From Nitrospira sp. (GTDB lineage Bacteria; Nitrospirota; Nitrospiria; Nitrospirales; UBA8639): a stretch of DNA of 64,000 nt. This document shows positions 22,594 to 23,040 of the stretch, in pieces. The stretch lies in contig WTGX01000034.1 in assembly GCA_011523385.1 (NCBI GenBank), positions 1 through 64,000 on the forward strand, given 5' to 3'. The translations under genes were made by a program, and so were the position numbers. The notes beneath the pieces are model-generated. The model saw only the letters and a program-made list of their open reading frames with translations, searched no databases and was not told where the DNA came from. Numbering within the stretch: position 1 is the first letter of the stretch; every line of letters begins with the position of its first letter.

Positions 22594-22627
22594 CAAAAAA
22601 ATGGGACCGTCCCGAGAGGACGATCCC
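22594..22627 (-). terminator. Intrinsic terminator of the tRNA-fMet gene
   Basis: On the minus strand GGGATCGTCC and GGACGGTCCC form a nearly perfect stem with a short loop, followed directly by a run of seven T residues. It lies about 20 bases beyond the CCA end of tRNA-fMet, so it should end that transcript. Confidence 0.85.
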
Positions 22628-22646: not shown

Positions 22647-23005
22647 TGGTTGCGGGGGAGGGATTTGAACCCTCGACCTTTGGGTTATGCGCGCCACTAC
22701 AGCTTTCGCTGCCTGATGAATCCAGTTTGTGGTCCGGACTTTCTCTTCATCCTCGGACCGGCTTCGCCGCCGTTAGGATGCCTGCCGTCAAGTCTCTACA
22801 CCTTCTGCCGGAGCGCGACGGCTCCGCCAGCTTGGCTCGGGGTTACCCCGCTACCGGCTTCCCCGAATTTGACAGGTGATCGTACAGAAGTTTCCCCCTG
22901 CACAGCCCATTGATTGTTGGGAGGGGTTGCAAATGTTTCGAGCAACCAGCGGATCACTCCTCACGGTATTGAGCCCAACGAGCTACCAGACTGCTCCACC
23001 CCGCA
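22647..23005 (-). tRNA. Initiator tRNA-fMet(CAU) interrupted by a group I intron
   Basis: The exons at 22972-23005 and 22647-22689 join to a 77-nt tRNA with encoded CCA. Initiator marks are visible: anticodon CAU, three consecutive G:C pairs at the base of the anticodon stem (GGG/CCC) and A11:U24 in the D stem. Position 1 is U opposite A72, instead of the C1xA72 mismatch of E. coli. The 282-nt insert lies in the anticodon loop. Because CA is repeated at both junctions, splicing after CU, CUC or CUCA gives the same tRNA. Splicing after U33 leaves U before the 5' site and G as the last intron base, as group I introns normally have. Confidence 0.92.
22690..22971 (-). ncRNA. Group I intron, IC3-like, in tRNA-fMet
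   Basis: The conserved core can be read in order: P2 GUGAUC/GAUCAC, P3 CCUGUC with GGCAGG, the P4-P6 region GUCAAAUUCGGGGAAGCC ... CCCCGAGCCAAGC, GAAGGUGUAGAGACU, the P8 arms AUCC/GGAU, and the P7 strand GAAAGUCC, then AGCGAAAGCUGUAGUGG near the 3' end. These blocks closely match what I recall of the Azoarcus tRNA-Ile intron ribozyme. It has no internal ORF. CUCA/UGAG near the 5' junction could be P1; this would pair the 5' junction differently from the U33 cut, so exact splice sites need testing. It is probably self-splicing. Confidence 0.9.
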
Positions 23006-23010
23006 GGGGC

Positions 23011-23040
23011 ATCGTAGCGAAGCCTCGCGAACAAAGTCAA
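23011..23040 (-). promoter_or_regulatory. Promoter of tRNA-fMet
   Basis: On the minus strand TTGACT (23040-23035), an 18-base spacer and TACGAT (23016-23011) form a good sigma-70-type promoter. Transcription would start at about 23002-23006, almost at the mature 5' end of the tRNA, leaving little or no leader. Confidence 0.6.

Follow-up and report, generated by a model that had tools for sequence, protein, structure and literature searches.

The gene at positions 23005 to 22647 on the minus strand of the 64,000-nt stretch analysed here (the window; contig WTGX01000034.1 of a draft Nitrospira sp. assembly) raises the question whether the initiation of all translation in a bacterium can depend on a ribozyme. 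An earlier note, made from the letters of the window, had placed a group I intron in the anticodon loop of its only evident initiator tRNA and left the splice junction undecided. Whether the insert is such an intron, where it would be spliced out and whether the cell possesses any other initiator are addressed in turn.

The split gene and the identity of its insert

The minus strand encodes an initiator tRNA (fMet, CAU) from U1 at 23005 to the A of the encoded CCA at 22647, interrupted at 22971-22690 by a group I intron of 282 nt; the outer coordinates of the earlier note were correct. ARAGORN missed the split gene when run on the window and recognized a normal tRNA-Met(CAU) in the joined exons, which exhibit the initiator-type GGG/CCC anticodon stem. 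The 77-nt joined exons differ at a single position from the intact initiators that further genera of the family carry (L059, L060, L063), which reveals the empty site and shows the insertion to be clean. The first tRNA nucleotide (position 1, window 23005) is a U able to pair with A72 (window 22651); among relatives of this initiator the position is occupied by U, C or A, and the initiators of E. coli have a C1xA72 mismatch.

Table 1. Position of the tRNA exons, intron elements and flanking signals in the window.
Feature	Position	Strand	Basis
Sigma-70-like promoter match upstream of the tRNA, TTGACT-18-TACGAT	23011..23040	minus	9/12; consensus match only
5' exon of tRNA-fMet, U1 to U33, 34 nt	22972..23005	minus	sequence; ARAGORN on joined exons
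P1 5' strand, exon GGCU ending in splice-site U33	22972..22975	minus	conservation in 27 homologues
Group I intron, 282 nt, starting CAAUACC and ending with terminal G, without endonuclease ORF	22690..22971	minus	RF00028, homologues, structure counts
Candidate P10, AUG just before the guide, pairable with the 3'-exon anticodon CAU	22910-22908	minus	92.6% paired
Internal guide GGCU, directly 5' of P2	22904..22907	minus	homologue alignment, P1 pairing
P2 hairpin, GAAA tetraloop	22882..22903	minus	both-side changes in 9/9 pairs among homologues
Catalytic core: P3, P4-P6 (no P5abc), P7 (guanosine site), P8	22737..22876	minus	pairing in 27 homologues
P9 region: CCAC/GUGG closing helix, variable hairpin, GAAA-loop hairpin (GCAGCGAAAGCUGU)	22691..22733	minus	helices 11-13 of the structure test
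3' exon of tRNA-fMet, C34 to encoded CCA, 43 nt	22647..22689	minus	sequence; ARAGORN on joined exons
Intrinsic-terminator-like hairpin with U run, some 20 nt beyond the tRNA 3' end	22603..22627	minus	11 pairs, tail ATTTTTTT; consensus match only

The Rfam group I intron model (RF00028), proposed in the earlier note as a check, matched the intron over the full model length with 47.4 bits (E 9.6e-10), though 2.6 bits under the gathering score of the family; the fMet intron of the cyanobacterium Rhizonema (L096) obtained a comparable 47.5 bits. No further group I introns were found in the genome. An Rfam tmRNA match at 22647-22726 (19 bits, under the cut-off) was discarded, as it consists of the tRNA 3' half and the intron end. 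The former label "IC3-like" is retained on the basis of the missing P5abc rather than of a subgroup-specific model: in L047, P5 ends in an 8-nt stretch with no P5abc extension, and IC3 introns are devoid of P5(a-d) (PMC11835236).

The conserved fold was evaluated in an alignment of 27 homologous introns (from the genus, other Nitrospirota and other phyla) against a named structure of 64 pairs. In the homologues, 96.4% of the cells were paired compared with 87.4% after shuffling, and changes on both sides were present in 36 of the 64 pairs (17 expected); none of the 500 shuffled alignments reached any measure of the real structure, and sliding one strand by 1-3 columns reduced the pairing to 34-44%. 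Within the core, P3, P4, P5 and P7 were paired in 100%, P6 in 98.8% and P8 in 96.3%. Minimum-energy folding of the 302-nt precursor (z -2.2) favoured a CUCA/UGAG hairpin that the earlier note had regarded as P1; for this reason, thermodynamic folding alone was left unused for the structure. Since the covariance model, the conserved fold, the homologous introns and the empty sites all agree, the initiator tRNA gene almost certainly contains, as the earlier note had claimed, a group I intron of the bacterial IC3 tRNA type; its site is U33|C34.

Splice junction, P1 and candidate P10

From one sequence alone the junction is ambiguous, since the first two bases of the intron usually repeat the CA of the anticodon; the earlier note had offered U33|C34 as one option and considered the junction impossible to fix. 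The option stands and the unresolvability does not, as the comparison of homologues determines U33|C34 as the splice junction: two introns (L055, L057) read GGGCUCG at the exon end, so that the exon cannot extend to A35, and two others (L124, L137) read GGGCU|UAAC, so that the exon there stops at U33. All 11 introns of the genus, whose detection did not depend on this base, terminate in a G followed by CAUAACCC; the multi-phylum scan described below presupposed this terminal G and is no independent evidence for it. A U.G wobble marks the 5' splice site and a G the last intron base, as expected of a group I intron, and after splicing at U33|C34 the joined exons are predicted to read GGGCUCAUAACCC across the junction.

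The proposal of CUCA/UGAG as P1 has to be abandoned: only 69.8% of its cells are paired in the homologues, a value reached by 258 of the 500 shuffles, and the real P1 is formed by the exon GGCU and the guide GGCU in front of P2. The P1 pairs U33.G, C32-G and G31-C are kept in 27/27 homologues and G30.U in 23/27; being invariant, the former show conservation, not covariation. The AUG/CAU pairing is likewise mostly invariant and remains a weak candidate for P10.

The initiator complement of the genome and the genus

The assembly (G000, 38 contigs) yielded 43 tRNA matches, two of them with a CAU anticodon besides the split gene, which were assigned from acceptor and anticodon-stem features to elongator Met (L018) and Ile2 (L040). 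An intact initiator anticodon arm (up to 3 mismatches) was absent from G000 as well as from the single-contig genomes G009 and G010 of the genus, the one match in G000 being the junction of the split gene itself. The statement that the window holds no other initiator therefore extends to the whole assembly. The tRNA-Ile(GAU) and tRNA-Ala(UGC) genes are also missing among the 43 matches; both are usually part of the rRNA operon, a region possibly absent from this draft.

Within the genus, the intron is present in 11 of 14 genomes including the two single-contig ones (10 of 13 besides this genome), and an intact initiator gene in 0 of 14; sister genera carry intact initiator genes. Of 296 genomes sampled from the phylum, 14 displayed the split-gene pattern (8 of this genus, 6 of other genera) and 226 the intact one; the two were never found together, the intact pattern being present in 226 of the 282 genomes without the split one. 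If genomes were drawn at random, such a lack of co-occurrence would have a probability of 6e-10, and of 7e-5 when the six genomes outside the genus are taken alone, both values being too small on account of shared descent. The second, intronless fMet gene that the earlier note had recommended looking for was thus encountered neither in the assembly nor in the genus (n=14) nor in the 14 split-gene genomes of the phylum sample, and this absence lends genetic support to its suggestion that initiation would depend on the ribozyme.

The split gene could instead be a dead copy, with an intact initiator elsewhere supplying the cell, and a draft of 38 contigs leaves some room for such a gene; its concealment in an assembly gap is, however, unlikely because the closed relatives G009 and G010 have none either. 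The strict exclusion of intact copies in the genus and of mixed patterns in the phylum speaks against a dead copy, and so do the exons and helices, as a dead copy would not keep the former identical across the genus and the latter compensated; this explanation is very improbable.

Draft quality also bears on the question whether the insertion could be an artefact of assembly or binning, with a contig of cyanobacterial or other origin misplaced in the bin, since the named members of the genus are mostly metagenome bins as well. Yet the intron, flanked by the exons of the genus, recurs at 79-97% identity in ten other, separate genomes (two of them single-contig), and its nearest relatives are introns of Nitrospirota; an artefact is already largely refuted and its probability practically nil.

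Several genomes deviated from the simple pattern. In G006, G007 and G013 of the same genus (estimated completeness 90-100%), no initiator tRNA was found, either split or intact, for which an assembly gap is a more likely cause than biology; the flank in G013 matches the window up to 22643, four bases off the tRNA 3' end, and continues with other sequence, as if the locus had been rearranged at the tRNA. The initiators of G025, G028 and G031 proved intact despite a single half being listed at first, and G033 contains a run of N inside the initiator gene, after an intact anticodon arm.

Related introns, possible mobility and the proposed splicing pathway

One genome per species was scanned for exact matches to the initiator 3' half preceded by G, which resulted in at least 115 stretches; a 5' half lies within 1000 nt upstream in at least 92 of those listed. 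Among the matches listed, and going by the titles of the records, at least 43 split fMet loci belong to Cyanobacteriota, the others to Nitrospirota, Omnitrophota, Chloroflexota, Uhrbacteria, Methylomirabilota, Acidobacteriota, Elusimicrobiota, Planctomycetota, Chlamydiota, Bacteroidota, Actinomycetota and several proteobacterial groups, so that the U33|C34 site is occupied in Cyanobacteriota and more than 10 other phyla. Many of these records are metagenome bins, and single odd placements are therefore unsafe. Records matching the genus of the window include 'Nitrospira sp. bin75', 'Nitrospira sp. SB0662_bin_26' and 'uncultured Nitrospirales' (OX638327.1); Nitrospira bins such as the first two presumably derive from sponges. 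In the intron tree, the genus groups with introns of other Nitrospirota and Methylomirabilota (SH-aLRT 91, not starred), which would fit an older acquisition followed by vertical inheritance within the genus.

Seven Acidobacteriota loci (L087, L101, L103, L110, L150, L161, L182) have another 3' intron end in common, with GGTGAGTCAGATCG in front of CATAACCC. Two of these, L087 and L161, have a 238- or 251-nt insert at the fMet site (RF00028 57.3 and 52.5 bits) and form a very long branch in the intron tree; the acidobacterial introns possibly represent a second, distinct group I type at the same site.

Group I introns in tRNA-fMet were described in 1994 (Biniszkiewicz et al. 1994; also Paquin et al. 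1997) and are reported for the cyanobacteria Dermocarpa, Scytonema, Synechocystis PCC 6803 and Gloeobacter, as cited in PMC8450103 and PMC5733544. The cyanobacterial introns compared here (L096, L178, L123) have the gene, the U33|C34 site and the P1/P2/core/P9 layout in common with the intron of the window; the latter differs in its Nitrospirota host, in its own longer P1-loop extension of about 60 nt, in having no endonuclease ORF and in its place in the Nitrospirota and Methylomirabilota group of the tree, apart from the cyanobacterial ones. As proposed in the earlier note, the core would also resemble that of the IC3 intron in Azoarcus tRNA-Ile(CAU), which we take to be equally small and without P5abc and to differ in the tRNA, the exon end and the guide.

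The Synechocystis fMet intron encodes I-Ssp6803I, which was the first PD-(D/E)XK homing endonuclease (PMC1995217) and is, according to Bonocora and Shub 2001 as cited in PMC1995217, specific for the anticodon region of the fMet gene. Most of the 600-700-nt fMet introns among the matches listed encode a relative of this enzyme, starting in the P1 loop of long homologues from other Nitrospirota and further phyla; the one compared, that of L153, matches the I-Ssp6803I structure 2ost with E 4.2e-66 and the Pfam family PDDEXK_5 (PF11645). An I-Ssp6803I-type ORF is absent from the 282-nt intron of the window, in contrast to these homologues. Short members of the fMet-intron family among the matches listed are mostly devoid of such an ORF too, and the absence of the ORF is therefore irrelevant to membership in the wider fMet family. 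Candidate endonuclease remnants in the P1 loop and upstream of P2 were rejected, as the matches represent the RNA core into which the ORFs of the long homologues run. In the 952-nt fMet intron of a Desulfatirhabdium bin (L137), a LAGLIDADG endonuclease (PF03161) replaces the PD-(D/E)XK type, i.e. two unrelated endonucleases colonized introns at one site.

From the conserved elements, a guanosine-dependent, two-step self-splicing in the cell would be expected. The pre-tRNA, probably transcribed as a single-gene unit, would fold around P3-P7/P8 and P4-P6; pairing of the guide GGCU with the exon-end GGCU would bring the U33.G wobble into the active site, where a guanosine bound in P7 would attack after U33. 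The freed 5' exon would then attack after the terminal intron G, the anticodon CAU being held on the AUG of the guide (P10), and the joining of the exons would deliver the cell's sole initiator tRNA. The intron itself has probably been kept by descent in the genus; the endonucleases of related introns could spread these into empty fMet genes, an ability that the intron of the window would lack at present, and its own past mobility may be assumed by comparison with them.

A sole, essential and ribozyme-dependent initiator would also allow that the intron is removed mainly with the help of host proteins, as some group I introns need such helpers (PMC3984707), or that the splicing rate sets the initiator supply, e.g. 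via guanosine nucleotides. The complete core helices and the GAAA-capped P2 and P9 hairpins are as expected of an efficient small ribozyme and argue against the former, and for regulation there is no sign of any kind here; both possibilities are considered quite unlikely. Because the only initiator of the genus passes through the ribozyme, splicing efficiency might even turn protein synthesis as a whole up or down like a switch, in response to guanosine nucleotide levels or Mg2+, which could explain the keeping of the intron in the genus; we regard this idea as quite improbable.

Introns of this kind are already known from initiator tRNAs. The literature searched, mainly outside subscription journals, contained no description of an fMet intron in Nitrospirota. 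As far as this literature goes, four points are new: the Nitrospirota host, the fixation in the genus, the fact that intact copies are strictly excluded, and the wide range of hosts sharing one site. A ribozyme-dependent start of translation, known from some cyanobacteria, would accordingly be fixed across a genus of Nitrospirota, with the identical site recurring in more than ten phyla among the matches listed, and the split gene accounts for the apparent lack of an initiator tRNA in the standard tRNA annotation of such genomes.
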